From the NCBI GenBank assembly GCA_036924855.1, contig JBAGRP010000001.1:5878001-5942000 (forward strand): a stretch of 64,000 nucleotides of DNA. The letters are read 5' to 3'. Shown in pieces: positions 3,309 to 48,320 of the stretch. Made by a program: the position numbers and the translations under genes. The notes under the pieces were generated by a model, which was not told the origin of the DNA, did not search any database, and was given only the letters and a program-made list of their open reading frames with translations. The number at the start of each line of letters is the position of its first letter. Positions within the stretch are counted from its first letter, which is position 1. This DNA comes from Nitrobacteraceae bacterium AZCC 2146. Lineage in GTDB: Bacteria; Pseudomonadota; Alphaproteobacteria; Rhizobiales; Xanthobacteraceae.

Positions 3309-6300
3309 TCACGACGCAGTGTTTGCGATCGCCGGCAGGGCGAATTGAAAGCTGGCGCCGCGGGGCAGGTTCGCGCTCGCCCACAATCGTCCGTTATGCG
3401 CGTCGATGATCGACCGGCAGATCGACAGCCCAAACCCCAAACCGTCCGGTTTCGTGGTGTAGAAAGCCTCGAATACGCGGTTGAGATCCGCCGGCGCGAA
3501 GCCTGGACCCGAATCTCGCACCTCGACTGACGCGCCATCCGGTTCGTTACGGGTGCTGATGAGCAATTCCCGCTCCTCTTCGTCGACGTCGCGCATCGCT
3601 TCGATAGCATTGATGATCAAATTAACTAGTACCTGTTGCAGCTGGACCCGATCACCCTGGACACGCGGCAAGCCCTCCGCCAACTGCGTCCGCACCGAGA
3701 CGCTATTGTGTGCGGCTTCCGTACGGGTGAGAGCAATAACCTCGAGGATGGCATCGTTGATCTCTACGGCGTCTTTTCGTGCGGGCGCCTTCTTCATGAG
3801 TGCGCGGATTCGCCCAACGACCTCGCCTGCGCGAGTCCCCTCCTTGACAATAAGAGCGAGCGCGTCATCCACCTCGCGAAAATTCGGTGGCTTAGCGCTT
3901 AGCAAGCGCCGAGCGGCTAACGCGTACGTGACTGCCGCTGTGATCGGCTGGTTCACTTCATGCGTGATCGAGGCCGTCAATTGGCCCATCGTCGCGACGC
4001 GGTTTACGTGTGCGAGGTCCGCCTGCGCCTTGCGCAGTGCCTCTTCGGCGTGCTTACGCCCCGTCAGATCGAGCACGAAGGCGACACCCTCATTTTGGCG
4101 GTCGCCGAACGTCGTCGCGCCGAGCAGAACCGGTACGCGGCTGCCGTCCTTGTGAAAGTACTCTTTCTCACGCGGTTGGACGGTTCCAGCCGCCTTCAGC
4201 TCTGCGACGGTCTGGTCGTCGGCGTCGCGCCATTCGGCTGGCGTCAGCTCCGTCCATCGCAGCCTACCCGAGACGAGATCTTCCCGGGCGTACCCGAGAA
4301 TATCGAGAAAGGCTTCGTTGGCTTCGATGATCCGGCCCTGAAAATCCCAAATCATGATCCCGATGATGTTCGAGTCGACCAGGCGGCGAATCCTGGCCTC
4401 CCGTTCCTGGAGATCGTTGTACAGTCGGGCGTTCTCCAGCGAGATCGCCGCTTGCGACGCCAGCAGTTCCAGTACCGAGATCCGGCCGGGCGTAAACACG
4501 TGCGATGCCAGGTTGTTCTCGAGGTAGAGTGCCCCGATCAGCTTGGATTGTTTCACCAGGGGAAGGCAGAGAACCGACCGAGCGTGCTTATGGCAGATGT
4601 ACTGATCTGACGAGAACGGATTCTGCGCCAAGGCGTCATCAAGGATCACGCTTTCCCGCCTCCAGATCACGGTATGGAGCAGGGATTCGGGAAGCTCCGC
4701 CGCTGACACCGCTGTTTGGCGCAGCGCAACCTCAACCTGGCCGCGGCCGGTCGTCGCTTCCGCCGCGATCCGTGGCTCGTCGCCCTGGAGCAGGATCAGC
4801 AGGCCGCGCCCGGCGCCGGCATGCTCGACCGCGATCCGCAGCAGCGTCTTGATGAGCTCATCGACGACGATCTCGCCGGACAGCGCCTGCGCAGCCTTGA
4901 GCACCGTACCGACATCCAGCCGCTCGACGGGTGCGCCAATGGTAGCAGTGCGAGATGCACGGACTTGTGCGTCGCGCAGATGCGGATGGAGCTGTTCCAG
5001 TTGCCGCACCTTGCCGTCGGCTCCCCAACGCAGGTAGCCGTAGCGGGCGTTCCGCAGACACAACTGGGCAAATCGCTCTAGCCCCCGCGCCGCGTAGTAA
5101 CGCGAGGCAAGTTCATTGGCGAGCGCCTCATTGTGAATAAAACCGTTGGTGCGGGCCGAGCGGATGGCCTGTTCGTAGAGGCGCTCGGCATCGAGCTCCC
5201 GGCCTTCGAGACGAGCGATCTCCGCCCCGACCAGCGCCGCGCGGTTCGCGAAATTCTCGGGGCAGTTCTCCGCCCACACCTCGAGTTGCTTGTGATGGGC
5301 GGCCAGCGTCTCCAGATGGCGGGCCCGCTCGCCGGCTGGTGCCGCGTCGCACTGTGCTGCTCGCGCGAGTGCGGCAAAAAAATGGAATTCGGCCACCTCA
5401 AAGAATGAGGGCGACGTCCAGAGAAGCTGCTGCGCCTTCGATGCTGCCTCGATAGCGGAAGCACAGTCGTCTGCGTAGACGCGCGCTTGCAGCTTGCGGA
5501 TCCAATACCAGCATTCGGGAAGCGCCAAACGTGGATCACTCTGCAAATGAGATTCGAACTGGCTCTCGTTGAACCGTTCATCATTGAAGGAGCCGAATTC
5601 TGCCGTCAGGCCGCGCAGAGTCCGGATCAGCCCGAGCTGCGCGGTGATAATGTCGATAACGAGACCAAACCGCGCCTTCCGCGCGAAGTCGAGCCCATTT
5701 TCGGCTTCGCGTTGCGCGTCGCCGAGCGGATCTCCGGCTGCGATAAGATTCGTGTTCAGGTTGTTGCAGCTGTAAGCCGCAAAGGTGAGGTCGCCGATCT
5801 TATTTGCGGCGTCGAAGGCGCGACGCACCAAATCCCGGCCGGTTTGGATGTGCCTCGTCCAGGGCATAACAAGATTGCCGAAGGACATGTAGGCACGGGC
5901 TTGGTAGCGATGCAGTCCACGCTTCTCCACCAGATCGTAGCCAAGCCTGCCGAATCGGAATCCAGCCCGGTAATCGCCAAAGTGTGGTCCGAGAATCATA
6001 CCAAGCCAGACATAAGCGAAGCACGATCCATCGCTGTTACCGTGTTCGAGGCTGAGATTGACCATCCGGCAAATCACGAGTGAGAGGAGGTTCTCGTCGG
6101 TAAACAATGCCGGTGTCACCACCTCGGTCAGAACATCGAGAGTCGCGCGGACCCCTGGATTGCTCATCAACGGCAAGTCGACGAGTTCCTCTATGGAGCG
6201 GGTCCCGACCTGTTGCCATATCCGATCATATTCGTGCCGGACCTCGTCCGTCATGGGATGCGGTGACCAGCGAACACCACCCCTTTGGAGGTATTCAAGA

Positions 6301-44553: not shown

Positions 44554-45246
44554 ATGGTGGAGACGACGTCGAGGTGGGAAGATGAGCTTGGACGCTGGCT
44601 CAAGCCATTCCTGGATCGTTTAGGTCACAAGGCTCGGCGGCGGATGTGTCCACTGTATGTTTCGGGGCTGATTGGGCCGGGTGATCGCAAGAGCGTCCAG
44701 CCGATGGCGGCGCGGTTGGCGCCGGGCGACTATGACCAGTTGCACCATTTCATCGCTGATGGCGTCTGGGACGCGGCGCCGCTGGAAGCAGAATTGCTCG
44801 TTCAGGCCGACCGGCTCGTCGGCGGCAACGATGCAGTGCTGGTCATCGACGACACATCGATGCCGAAGAAGGGCGATCGCTCGGTTGGTGTCGCTCCGCA
44901 ATATGCATCAACTCTCGGCAAGACGGCCAATTGCCAAACGTTGGTGTCGCTGACGCTTGCGCGCGGTGAGGTGCCGGTAATGGTGGCGCTACGTCTCTTC
45001 ATTCCCGAGAGTTGGACGAGCGATCCGGTACGTCTGAAGCGTGCCGGCGTTCCAATCGAGCATCGCACGGCACGGTCCAAGCCAGAGATCGCGCTGGCTG
45101 AGATCGATCGCGTGATCGCCGCCGATGTTCGCTTCGGCTGTGTGCTGGCGGACGCGGGATACGGATCGAGCGCGCCGTTCCGTCATGCTCTGAGCGAACG
45201 TGGCCTCTTGTGGGCAGTTGGTATGTCGCGACGCCAGAAAGTCTAG
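44554..45246 (+). pseudogene. IS701-family transposase, truncated
   Basis: Encodes 230 residues from MVETTSRWEDEL. The pattern VLVIDDTSMPKKGDRSVGVA, then FGCVLADAGYGSS, shows the first two Asp of the DDE triad. The family protein continues past RQKVYPA, but here the frame stops at 45244-45246 exactly where IS110 sequence begins. The catalytic Glu half is lost. Confidence 0.85.
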
Positions 45247-45381
45247 CGGTAATGACGGCCAATGCTCGCAGCGCGCTCTGCGCTTTCTCAGCAGTACGCC
45301 GTCCTCCATAAAATGCTGCTTGAGGTCGTGCGAGTCGAACCTACCTGTCGGCGATTGATGACCGTTCCCGGCGTCGGCGCG
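45247..45381 (+). pseudogene. IS110-family transposase, middle part left of the recombinase element
   Basis: The frame reads QQYAVLHKMLLEVVRVEP and TCRRLMTVPGVGA up to 45381. MTVPGVG is the start of the IS110 C-terminal transposase domain (Tnp_20/IS116). The N-terminal RuvC-like domain is absent on this side, replaced by IS701. The rest of the gene continues at 47946. Confidence 0.8.
45376..45381. other. left attachment junction core (GGCGCG)
   Basis: GGCGCG occurs here and at 47946-47951. Joining the outer flanks through one copy restores GTC GGC GCG TTG ACT in the IS110 gene (VGALT). It is therefore the core common to attL and attR of the serine-recombinase element. Confidence 0.75.
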
Positions 45382-45406
45382 ACAACTTCATAATGCTCAC
45401 TATCAG

Positions 45407-45844
45407 TTGCGTGAGACGATTATCCGTTACCGATTTCATCCCCGTTACGGGCAAACGGTCATCGTGACCAGTCGCCATCGCCGTGGTAACGACGTCGCTG
45501 TGACCATCCGTCAGCCCGATGGCACACTGGCGCAGCTGCCGATCTGGATGACGGAGGATTCGGCGGAGGCGATGGTGGTGACGGAGATTCCACTTCTGCC
45601 GCTGGCGCATCTGCGTGAGCTCCGTCTCGAGCTCGATACCTGCCTAAGCTTGTTGCACGACGATTCCCGTCGTGAAGGAGACAAGCATGACGCGTCGGCA
45701 ACAATATCAACGCCAATCCGACCTCTTCGTGCCCAAGACGCCACTGGTACCGATGACAGCGTCCGAGCGGGCGAAGCTATTGCCACTGGTGAGCGCGCTT
45801 TTGTCGGAAATACTCAGTGTCGTCGCAGTGACGGAGGCAGGTGA
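45407..45844 (+). CDS. DUF5372-like protein of the recombinase element
   Basis: Encodes up to 145 residues from a TTG start (MRETIIRYRFHPRYG). The compact domain IIRYRFHPRYGQTVIVTSR through IPLLPLAHLRELRLELD resembles DUF5372, small proteins usually found beside serine recombinases. After about residue 90 the frame overlaps the next gene and its tail is probably not conserved. A role in recombination control or target recognition is possible but unproven. Confidence 0.7.
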   Translation: MRETIIRYRFHPRYGQTVIVTSRHRRGNDVAVTIRQPDGTLAQLPIWMTEDSAEAMVVTEIPLLPLAHLRELRLELDTCLSLLHDDSRREGDKHDASATISTPIRPLRAQDATGTDDSVRAGEAIATGERAFVGNTQCRRSDGGR

Positions 45845-45860
45845 TGAAGATCACGCCTGA
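45687..45860 (+). CDS. small protein of the recombinase element
   Basis: Encodes 57 residues from MTRRQQYQRQSDLF, with GAAGGAGACAAGC upstream. It is basic at the start, then has a hydrophobic helical segment (KLLPLVSALLSEILSVV). It overlaps the DUF5372-like gene and ends 17 bases inside the recombinase gene, so the three are translated as a unit. Similar small frames precede this recombinase type in other rhizobial sequences as I recall them. Function unknown. Confidence 0.6.
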   Translation: MTRRQQYQRQSDLFVPKTPLVPMTASERAKLLPLVSALLSEILSVVAVTEAGDEDHA

Positions 45861-47913
45861 TCATCTGGCGCGGGGCGCCTTCATCTACATTCGGCAATCC
45901 ACCGTCGACCAGCTTGCCAACAATCATGAGAGCCGACGGCGTCAATATGGCCTTGCTGATCGTGCTCGAGCTCTCGGCTGGACGGATGTGACAGTCATTG
46001 ATGACGATCTTGGTCGCTCGGGTTCGGGCGTCAGCCGTCCGGGATTCGAGAGGCTGCTTGCAGCGATCTGTGAAGGCCGCGTTGGTGCCGTGTTTTCGAT
46101 CGAGGCGTCGCGCCTGGCGCGCAACGGACGCGACTGGCACACTCTGATCGAATTTTGCGGCTTGGTCGGCACGGTGATCGTCGATGAGGATGGAACGTAT
46201 GAACCACGCCATCCGAACGACCGGCTATTGCTGGGCATGAAGGGGACGATGAGCGAGCTCGAACTGTCGCTCCTGCGGGCCCGTTCGATGGAAGCCCTGA
46301 AGCAGAAGGCACGACGGGGCGAGCTGTTCTTCTCGGTAGCCGTTGGCTATGTAAAAGTAGGCCGCGACAAAATCGAAATGGATCCCGACCTGCGCGTGCG
46401 TGAGGCGATTGGGCTGGTCTTCGCCCGGTTTGCCGAGATGCAAAGCATCCGCCAAGTGTTTTTGTCGCTTCGAGGTGACCAGATCGCGCTGCCGTATATC
46501 GACCCCAAAGTCTCGGGACAACATCAGGTGATGTGGAAGCTACCGGTCTACACGTCGGTGAGCAATCTTCTCACCAATCCTGTTTATGCTGGTGCTTACG
46601 CCTTTGGCCGAACCGGAAGTCGGATGACAATCGAAAATGGCCGCAAGCGAATCGTTCGCGGCCGCCGCAAAGATCGCTCAGATTGGGCGGTCTTGCTCGT
46701 CGAGCATCACGAGGGCTATTTGTCCTGGGCAGACTTTGAAAGGAATCAACGGCTGATCGCTGACAACGCCAATGGTAAGGGCATGATGGTGCGCGGACCG
46801 GTGCGCAAGGGGGAGGCTTTGCTCGCCGGCCTGCTGCGCTGTGGTCATTGCGGCCGCCGGCTGCTTGTTAGCTACAATGGCACCAAGGGCGATGTCGGCC
46901 GCTATAATTGTGACGCGACCCGGAGCAATCCCGGTGCTGGTCCCTGTATCTCATTCGGCGCTTTGCGGGTCGATGAGGCGGTGGGAGCCGAGATTGTGCG
47001 GTTGCTGCAGCCGCTCGGTGTTGAAGCAGCCATCCAAGCGATCACACAATGCGAGCACCAGTCTGGCGAAAAACAACGCCAGATCGAGTTGGCGCTCGAG
47101 CAGGCGCGATACGAGGCAACCAGGGCACGCCGACAGTATGATACGGTCGACCCTGATAATCGTCTGGTCGCTGGCGAACTCGAGCGGCGGTGGAATGCCG
47201 CCCTTGCGGCCGTACGCGCACTCGAGGAGGAAATGGAGGCGCTGCTTCGACAGCGGCCGGCGACCTTGAGTGCAGAGGAGCGCAAGCGTCTGCTGCAAAT
47301 GGGGGCTGACCTGGAGGCTGCTTGGCATCATCCGGCGGCCACTGCCGTCACGCGTAAGCGTATCATCCGAGTCGTGTTGCGTGAGGTGGTAGCCTGCGTC
47401 GAGGATGACCAGATTCATTTATTGTTGCATTGGCAGGGCGGCGATCATACCCGCCTGATGGTGAGAAAGAACCGGAGGGGACAAACACGGTGGGCCGTCG
47501 AGCCCGAGACGGTGGAATTGATCCGCGCCTGCGCGCGATTGATGCCTGACAAAGCCATTGCCGGCATGCTCAACCGGACAGGTAAGCGAACAGGCCGATT
47601 GAATGGATGGACACAGTCGCGTGTGCGGGGCTTCCGCAACACGCACGGCATCTCGGTCTACAGGGATGGCGAATGGGCCGAGCGCGGCGAAGTCACGTTG
47701 CCTGAAGCAGCCAGGATGCTCAATCTGAGCCCCCTGACGGTGCTACGCCAGATACGCGCCGGCGTCATTCCCGCCAAGCAATATTGTGCAGGCGCACCCT
47801 GGGTAATCAAACGACGGGATATCGAAGATCAGCATGTGATCGAGCGCGTCAGGGCGTGCTGCAAAAGCCCGTCATCATCAAATCCAAATCAAAAGACCTT
47901 TGTCTTTCAATAA
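45844..47913 (+). CDS. large serine recombinase (resolvase/recombinase/zinc-ribbon)
   Basis: Encodes 689 residues from ATG 45844; a GTG three bases earlier is possible. GGAGGCAG lies upstream. Resolvase domain: catalytic Ser in AFIYIRQSTVDQL (near 19), DDDLGRSGSGVSRPGF, and EASRLARNGRDWH. Recombinase domain (about 160-290), zinc ribbon LRCGHCGRRL...YNCDATRSN...PCISF (about 330-375), coiled coil rich in Glu/Arg (390-480), and a C-terminal MerR/HTH-like segment (LPEAARMLNLSPLTVLRQI near 625-650). It catalyses site-specific insertion and excision of the element. Its gene nearly reaches the right junction. Confidence 0.93.
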   Translation: MKITPDHLARGAFIYIRQSTVDQLANNHESRRRQYGLADRARALGWTDVTVIDDDLGRSGSGVSRPGFERLLAAICEGRVGAVFSIEASRLARNGRDWHTLIEFCGLVGTVIVDEDGTYEPRHPNDRLLLGMKGTMSELELSLLRARSMEALKQKARRGELFFSVAVGYVKVGRDKIEMDPDLRVREAIGLVFARFAEMQSIRQVFLSLRGDQIALPYIDPKVSGQHQVMWKLPVYTSVSNLLTNPVYAGAYAFGRTGSRMTIENGRKRIVRGRRKDRSDWAVLLVEHHEGYLSWADFERNQRLIADNANGKGMMVRGPVRKGEALLAGLLRCGHCGRRLLVSYNGTKGDVGRYNCDATRSNPGAGPCISFGALRVDEAVGAEIVRLLQPLGVEAAIQAITQCEHQSGEKQRQIELALEQARYEATRARRQYDTVDPDNRLVAGELERRWNAALAAVRALEEEMEALLRQRPATLSAEERKRLLQMGADLEAAWHHPAATAVTRKRIIRVVLREVVACVEDDQIHLLLHWQGGDHTRLMVRKNRRGQTRWAVEPETVELIRACARLMPDKAIAGMLNRTGKRTGRLNGWTQSRVRGFRNTHGISVYRDGEWAERGEVTLPEAARMLNLSPLTVLRQIRAGVIPAKQYCAGAPWVIKRRDIEDQHVIERVRACCKSPSSSNPNQKTFVFQ

Positions 47914-47945
47914 CGTAGTGAGATGGGCAATATGACGTGGGATCA

Positions 47946-48320
47946 GGCGCGTTGACTGCGGTCACCTATCTCACGACCATCGACGACCCCGCGCGCTTCC
48001 AGCGGTCGCGTGACGTCGGCGCTCACCTTGGTCTAACACCAAGAAAATATGCGTCCGGAGAGATTGACCGCAATGGTTCCATCTCGAAGTGCGGCGACAC
48101 GCTGCTCAGGACGACATTATACCAGGCGGCCCTCGCGTTACTGACGCGGACCCAGCGTTGGTCAACGTTGAAGGCATGGGGGATGGAGGTAGCTAAGCGA
48201 CGCGGACTACGTCGGGAAATTGTTGCGGTGGCGCGCAAGCTTGCGATCGTCATGCATCGCATCTGGACCGATGGCAGCGAGTTCCGCTGGTCACGCGAGG
48301 AAGCGATGGCAAAACCATAG
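47946..48320 (+). pseudogene. IS110-family transposase, C-terminal part right of the recombinase element
   Basis: Resumes in frame as GALTAVTYLTTIDDPARFQR, then GLTPRKYASGEID, ISKCGDTLLRTTLYQAALAL and VAVARKLAIVMHRIWTDG, ending at TAG 48318-48320. This is the complete IS116/IS110/IS902 domain. Joined to 45247-45381 it makes one continuous reading frame, so only the recombinase element and the IS701 junction break it. Confidence 0.85.

Follow-up and report, generated by a model that had tools for sequence, protein, structure and literature searches.

An interrupted IS110 gene

We analyzed 64,000 nucleotides from the genome of Nitrobacteraceae bacterium AZCC 2146 (contig JBAGRP010000001.1, positions 5,878,001 to 5,942,000 of the forward strand). 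We refer to this whole stretch as the window and number it from 1. Within it, an insertion sequence (IS) gene of the IS110 family is split into two parts that flank three overlapping open reading frames (ORFs), the last of which encodes a large serine recombinase (LSR). The initial annotation had described a three-gene insert in an IS110 gene, and we confirm this: the unit is 2,570 bp long, its domains are identified by Pfam, and the core dinucleotide GG at 45376-45377 is repeated at 47946-47947. The features are:

45256..45377, + strand: IS110 5' part, 40 codons up to PGV, with the N-terminal half missing (the joined frame has 164 aa)
45376..45377, + strand: GG core at the left end, on the first two codon positions of PGVG's second Gly (seven-copy comparison and frame-blind end call)
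45378..45396, + strand: left half-site, 11 nt and then CATAATGC (from the sequence; common to relatives)
45407..45844, + strand: DUF5372-like gene, 145 aa, TTG start, residues ~1-94 conserved (sub-cut-off Pfam match, homologue alignment, model)
45687..45860, + strand: gene for a 57-aa protein, overlapping both neighbors, with a conserved LF motif and a helix (alignment of 16 homologues, model)
45844..47913, + strand: large serine recombinase, 689 aa, alternative start GTG at 45841 (ORF, Pfam, PHROGs, domains of relatives)
47927..47945, + strand: right half-site, GCAATATG and then 11 nt (sequence and end calls)
47946..47947, + strand: right core dinucleotide GG (seven-copy comparison)
47946..48320, + strand: IS110 3' part, Transposase_20 domain (PF02371, NF033542)

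The 5' part of the IS110 gene matches residues 183-226 of our panel IS110 protein. The 3' part matches PF02371 (E=5.8e-17 by Pfam) and scores 98.6 bits against NF033542, which is below the cut-off of 140, the protein being partial. Removing the insert does rebuild a single IS110 frame, as had been claimed, but that frame has only 164 aa (40 residues before the junction), as this IS110 gene was already 5'-truncated and lacks its N-terminal half. Between the ends of the element there are no phage structural or conjugation genes: the unit consists of the three ORFs and has no cargo genes.

Seven copies at one codon

The host genome (7.64 Mb, a single contig) contains seven copies of the recombinase, with 100% amino-acid identity after rounding. 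At the DNA level, six of the elements are identical and the seventh (L007; we give loci as L numbers) has 4 differences over 2,564 compared positions. All seven lie in IS110 genes, in the sense orientation, at the codon for the second glycine of PGV[G], with GG as the shared core. The initial suggestion of a target at the conserved MTVPGVG region of IS110 genes is therefore borne out. It had also been noted that GGCGCG is present at both junctions. This is true of the window copy, but we reject GGCGCG as the core, because the six sister copies share only GG; the longer match arises since this IS110 allele happens to continue with CGCG. Among the copies, the base before GG is T, C, or G at the left junction and always A at the right junction, while the base after GG is always C at the left and T, C, G, or A at the right, so the overlap is exactly GG (2 bp).

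A promiscuous element might have landed by chance in the IS genes of an IS-rich genome. There are 16 matches to PF02371 in this genome (seven of them the 3' halves that adjoin the elements, the other nine element-free IS110 genes, of which only L015 and L016 resemble the occupied type, by our reading), and multi-targeting LSRs with low specificity are described in PMC10083194. However, seven of seven copies at one codon already refutes this explanation, and relatives are found at homologous codons in unrelated hosts, so we give it practically no chance.

Another explanation is that the element inserted once, into an ancestral IS110, and that the interrupted gene and its insert then spread together. 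All seven copies are in IS110 genes, as this would predict. But the left halves of the IS110 genes at L001-L004 are only 36-48% identical at the amino-acid level while their elements are identical, so these insertions postdate the split of the IS110 genes, and the explanation is refuted for these four loci. Closer pairs do exist (79% for the left halves of L003 and L006, and 90% for the right halves of L004 and L006), but L006 is chimeric. Overall, we consider spread as a unit very improbable, and we favor independent insertions at the PGVG codon. The rebuilt stop-to-stop IS110 frames are 355-385 aa at L001-L004, 330 aa at L006, and 197 aa at L007.

L006 (genome positions 6331372-6336438) combines halves from two different IS110 genes. 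Its left half is 79% identical to the left half of L003 and 36% identical to that of L004; its right half is 90% identical to the right half of L004 and 57% identical to that of L003. Recombination between copies of the element probably made this hybrid and rearranged the genome.

This genome is the only one of 18 in its genus with a recombinase match at E ≤ 1e-60. It also contains a second, distant serine-recombinase element (L008, genome positions 1293895-1298904; 38% identity), which is located within an istB gene of IS21, close to a different conserved site, FG[D/E]A..TALLDR. At the window copy, a truncated IS701-family transposase gene (44554-45246; NF033540, 262.6 bits) lies directly upstream of the IS110 remnant.

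Ends of the element and a frame-blind test

The left end consists of 11 nt and then an 8-mer like CATAATGC; the right end consists of an 8-mer like GCATTATG and then 11 nt; and the 2-bp core lies between. The 11-nt spacing of the half-sites from the core holds on both sides and recurs in relatives. The attachment site of a circular form (attP) is predicted to be roughly symmetrical, with arms that match at 14 of 30 positions.

We called ends from the half-sites and from equality of the core, ignoring the reading frame. Among 146 loci with a recombinase match (103 of them nearly full length, duplicates counted), a half-site pair was present at 101, and after deduplication there were 60 loci whose pair was unique and scored at most 1. 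The target motif runs across the junction in an open frame in 54 of these 60 loci, with the core always at codon positions 1-2; because the lists come from the same loci and genomes are shared, this is a consistency check and not an independent test. Random joins from the same regions, with equal dinucleotides, gave a target motif in only 162 of 12,000 cases, which also argues against landing by chance. The elements at the 54 loci are 2,439-2,685 bp long, and 50 of them have the same core letters on the left and on the right.

Other ways of calling ends were rejected. When the half-sites were not fixed, an inverted-repeat score returned end pairs that were mostly due to chance. A regular-expression caller missed many loci, including the seven copies in the host genome, and a mismatch-tolerant caller gave frame 0 a bonus; both were replaced by the frame-blind calls. 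We also excluded L075 from the 54 loci: its IS110 motif match is spurious (offset 1), its flank is Y2_Tnp (IS91-like), and it is beyond the score limit.

Non-palindromic cores are used in one direction: GG (IS110) was in the sense orientation at 9 of 9 loci, as was CT (tyrosine recombinase genes; 9 of 9). The palindromic GC core of the IS66-RPIA type was found in both orientations: of the loci with GC on the left and right, 2 are sense and 5 antisense. Three more antisense loci of this type have GT/GC or CC.

Uninterrupted target alleles

We compared joined flanks with uninterrupted DNA in public records. The joined istB flanks of L083 (a Sinorhizobium meliloti plasmid) match in one piece over 302 of 302 bp, at 99.7% identity, in all of the best 20 of 86 records, and the matching DNA is mostly annotated as istB. 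The joined IS66 flanks of L095 also match over 302 of 302 bp (100% identity in 17 and 99.7% in 3 of the best 20 of 75 records), and this DNA is mostly annotated as IS66 transposase. For the IS110 copies L001 and L004 of the host genome we found only diverged uninterrupted relatives, with single pieces across the join at 74.6-83.5% identity. These pieces cover 91-100% of the query for L001 (74.6-82.7% identity, best 10 of 54 records) and 57-58% for L004 (80.1-83.5% identity, best 20 of 80 records); none of the 80 records for L004 reached 80% coverage. So, the expectation that joined flanks match intact relatives holds closely for istB and IS66, and for IS110 only at the level of diverged relatives.

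The recombinase and the small proteins

The recombinase has Resolvase, Recombinase, and Zn_ribbon_recom domains and a C-terminal HTH_17 domain. PF00239, PF07508, and PF13408 are above the cut-off in the window recombinase and in all 10 relatives that we scanned. The catalytic serine of large serine recombinases lies within a Y-x-R-x-S motif. The candidate for this motif in the window recombinase, from reading the sequence, is Y15-I-R17-Q-S19; for Bxb1, R8 and S10 are named in an excerpt of PMC12884075. In PHROGs, the recombinase matches an integrase and, weakly, excisionases. Its sequence matches in PDB are weak (the best is 3guv, E=2.9e-6) and include the catalytic domain of TnpX (2mhc, E=0.00041). 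The excisionase-like HTH_17 domain is fused to the end of the recombinase, at residues 617-662. Six of the 10 relatives have it at E ≤ 0.01, and two of these exceed the Pfam cut-off.

The DUF5372-like protein scores 19.7 bits, which is below the Pfam cut-off of 25. Its N-terminal part is conserved across 21 aligned copies, and 20 of the 21 match DUF5372 at E ≤ 0.1. The model has pLDDT (predicted local distance difference test) values of 94-96 for residues 1-50 and resembles a small beta structure with a helix. We claim no function for this protein, as Foldseek gave no match to the model at E ≤ 0.001. In the 57-aa protein, which is modeled as a single helix, M1, L13, F14, and D55 are invariant among 16 aligned copies. 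Both small proteins recur without cargo, which suggests a role in mobility, for example as directionality factors.

Relatives and their targets

We collected 35 related loci from GTDB contigs. On plasmids, the recombinase has matches at E ≤ 1e-50 in 453 records (903 places), and we examined 24 of these regions. Matches were also found in 16 of 397 further genomes in the order and 11 of 385 in the class, and, with other queries, in 14 of 198 in the family (IS3-type query) and 11 of 398 in the phylum (IS66-type query).

Twelve loci outside the host genome have at least 80% recombinase identity over the best segment, and 10 of these are in IS110 genes. IS110 is on both sides of the element at L025, L040, L081, and L082, and next to one end only at L026, L027, L050, L054, L055, and L057.

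More distant relatives lie in other genes. Targets include the Walker A motif of IS21 IstB (antisense); IQxL[L]GH of a tyrosine recombinase gene (sense); RPI[A]L.RK (both orientations) and AGS[D]GG (antisense) of IS66 TnpC; and [Y]N..R[PT]H of an IS3/IS481-like OrfB (antisense). The IS66 target rests on right-flank matches, Pfam, and uninterrupted IS66 genes in public records; left-flank matches to residues 491-553, which are to a C-terminal piece added to the panel, were not used for the target call. So, IS110 genes as safe landing sites, which had been proposed at first, are one case of this behavior, but the idea was too narrow, as relatives hit other transposase families. One genome has five copies that target IS3/IS481 at the same tyrosine codon (L119, L133, L143, L146, and L148). 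The latter four are each 0-1 base from L119, and the flanks are alike in L119, L133, and L148.

For the deepest relatives, the ends are not fixed exactly (these include L008, L075, L098-L103, L107-L118, L136-L138, L156, and L158), and the targets rest on reading the ORFs in the flanks and partly on Pfam. A second site in IstB is flanked at L008, L109, and L098 (the flanks of L098 come from two different istB genes). The flanks are an IS91-like TnpA at L075; IS66 TnpB at L089, L103, and L117; an rve transposase, which we read as IstA, at L100; another rve transposase at L158; an IS4/5-family transposase of a Streptomyces at L101; and, by reading, IS4 of a cyanobacterium at L102 and ISNCY at L099. 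L107 appears to be at a second IS110 site (from a low-scoring end call and flank reading).

Pfam confirmed the flanks of L067, L100, and L158 (rve), L095 (IS66), L041 (Phage_integrase), L028 (IstB), L136 and L156 (RVT_1), L117 and L089 (TnpB_IS66), L075 (Y2_Tnp), and L101 (DDE_Tnp_1/DUF4096). Pfam found no match in the flanks of L137 and L102 and only helix-turn-helix (HTH) domains for L099. The assignments of L137 (reverse transcriptase, RT), L102 (IS4), L099 (ISNCY), L100 (IstA), and L103 (TnpB) are by reading or from the annotation of the record. Group II intron RT genes are apparently interrupted in the distant relatives L136, L156, and L137 (the last by reading), and L136 and L156 are, by reading, in the same RT region, D[LI][RK][SG].FD.

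At L110, an ORF similar to nucleoside hydrolases (positions 3550-4140; PF01156, E=1.6e-9) adjoins the element, and we saw no clear mobile gene.

Target choice follows the recombinase tree

We built a quick IQ-TREE tree of 82 recombinases, with SH-aLRT (approximate likelihood ratio test) support only and without two short rows (L034 and L052); some of the rows represent copies that share a genome. Target choice follows this tree. The 20 target labels need 20 changes in all, and shuffled labels need 59.2 on average. Five groups require a single change each: IS110 (7 rows), tyrosine recombinase (10), IS66-RPIA (11), IS66-AGSD (3), and the second IstB site (3). The support for these groups is 99-100 (100 for IS110). 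The IS3 group requires two changes, as L108, whose target is unassigned, is nested within it. Four changes are required for targeting of the Walker A motif of IstB. Because this state encloses the groups for IS110, tyrosine recombinase, and IS66-AGSD, we infer that it is the older one.

Alternatively, the recombinase might read a GC-rich DNA motif that is present in many genes, with transposase genes merely being the commonest carriers. Walker A motifs occur in host genes too, and L110 is beside a fragment of a non-mobile gene. However, 72 of the 82 rows have mobile-element genes as targets (by our own assignment, with several rows sharing a genome), and different lineages hit different transposases, so we think this improbable and prefer recognition of the DNA that encodes conserved motifs in the enzymes of mobile elements. 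The other rows are nine without an assigned target and L110, with its nucleoside-hydrolase-like flank.

Proposed life cycle

These comparisons of loci show precise insertion with a 2-bp core at a fixed codon, in a single orientation where the core is GG or CT, with multi-copy spread and lineage-specific targets. It is very likely, in our judgment, that the window holds a cargo-free serine-recombinase element of about 2.57 kb that inserts at the GG of the PGVG codon, could be removed again by excision, and multiplies as a parasite of transposons. The behavior of the relatives suggests that these elements form a family that parasitizes jumping genes.

We propose that a circular form carries attP (half-site, 11 nt, GG, 11 nt, half-site), whose junction is predicted to read ...GGGATCA-GG-CGCGACAAC... 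The recombinase would pair attP with attB, the conserved coding sequence around PGVG, and use serine-integrase chemistry via Ser19 to make a cut at GG that is staggered by 2 nt and join the ends. Insertion would break the IS110 gene, and excision could restore it exactly. Direction might be set by the DUF5372-like protein, the 57-aa protein, or the excisionase-like HTH_17 tail of the recombinase. As IS110 genes are numerous and expendable, each could serve as a landing site, and the element would multiply as a parasite of these transposons. Related lineages may have changed their target by moving to another conserved motif.

Several observations weigh against this account. The circular form, excision, and the activity of the enzyme are all deduced from sequence. 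The half-site and motif lists were derived from the same loci on which they were tested, and the 54 loci include several copies per genome (seven in the host genome and five in genome G868). The core differs between the ends at 4 of the 54 loci (L030, L048, L093, and L130), and 6 of the 60 have no motif match. Of these six, L027 lacks the 5' part of the recombinase and its left side is rearranged; L049 and L069 are at contig ends; L084 is an IstB that the pattern missed; L129 has an IS66 side but has lost the motif; and the sixth is L091. The palindromic TA core (IS3/IS481) is found in one orientation only (12 of 12). The other two of the twelve loci with at least 80% identity, short recombinase fragments at 83-84%, are outside IS110: L056 (157 residues) is in a tyrosine recombinase gene, and the target of L059 (49 residues) was not found. 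L110 is a possible exception to the targeting of mobile elements, 9 of the 82 tree rows have no assigned target, and L006 joins halves of two IS110 genes.

The element might instead be a reversible switch, in which insertion and regulated excision toggle IS110 to the benefit of the host or of the IS. Precise insertion is in principle fully reversible, and the recombinase does have an excisionase-like C-terminal HTH. But damage to the IS110 genes at L007 and at the window copy is too great for restoration, and parasitism fits the multi-copy spread better, so a switch seems unlikely to us, and we retain the parasite as our explanation.

There may be a broader pattern: a large radiation of cargo-free transposon hyperparasites, with one enzyme motif per lineage, that evolves by motif switching. 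The IS110, tyrosine-recombinase, and one of the IS66 lineages would have arisen from IstB-targeting stock. By saturating their target genes, such elements would act as brakes on IS activity, perhaps reversibly through precise excision. We give this broader proposal about an even chance of being correct.

Comparison with known systems and significance

Characteristic of large serine recombinases are integration (attB x attP) by the enzyme alone and the need for a recombination directionality factor in excision. The integrases of phages and of integrative and conjugative elements (such as phiC31 and Bxb1) have the same Resolvase-Recombinase-Zn-ribbon architecture, a 2-bp core, and a precise, conserved coding target. 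In contrast, the element described here has no phage genes, conjugation genes, or cargo, is multi-copy, and targets mobile-element genes. Targets named in an LSR survey include a magnesium chelatase, a prolyl isomerase, and competence genes (PMC10083194).

The serine transposases of the TnpX/TndX type resemble our recombinase through its weak match to the catalytic domain of TnpX. Like the element here, Tn4451 and Tn5397 use a serine recombinase for transposition to multiple sites; unlike it, they carry cargo. DUF4368 is common, although not universal, in the clade of multi-targeting enzymes to which the TndX-like ones belong, according to the same survey (PMC10083194); it is not among the Pfam matches of the window recombinase or of the 10 relatives.

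IS607-type serine ISs are also minimal elements, with a small serine recombinase and TnpB as its partner; here the LSR has 689 aa and the accompanying small proteins are different. Helper-embedded phage-inducible chromosomal islands use tyrosine integrases. Like our family, they have one integrase clade in which every subclade has its own conserved target gene in another mobile element, but they are phage satellites with cargo and lie in the late genes of prophages (both from an excerpt of PMC10111431), while the element here is in an IS110 gene.

We found no description of minimal LSR elements that specialize on the codons of transposon enzymes in the titles and abstract openings of the open-access literature that we searched; subscription papers, preprints, and the supplements of LSR surveys are outside this scope, and the survey tables may hold members of the family.

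LSR integration was already known, and what appears to be new, within the literature searched, is the specialization on conserved codons of the enzymes of other transposons. Such elements would form a further level of parasitism in the mobilome and would be a natural mechanism that inactivates IS110, IS21, IS66, and IS3 elements. Because related recombinases have sharply different attachment sites, the evolution of LSR target specificity becomes directly testable. These elements may also account for many of the genes on rhizobial plasmids that are annotated as "recombinase family protein."

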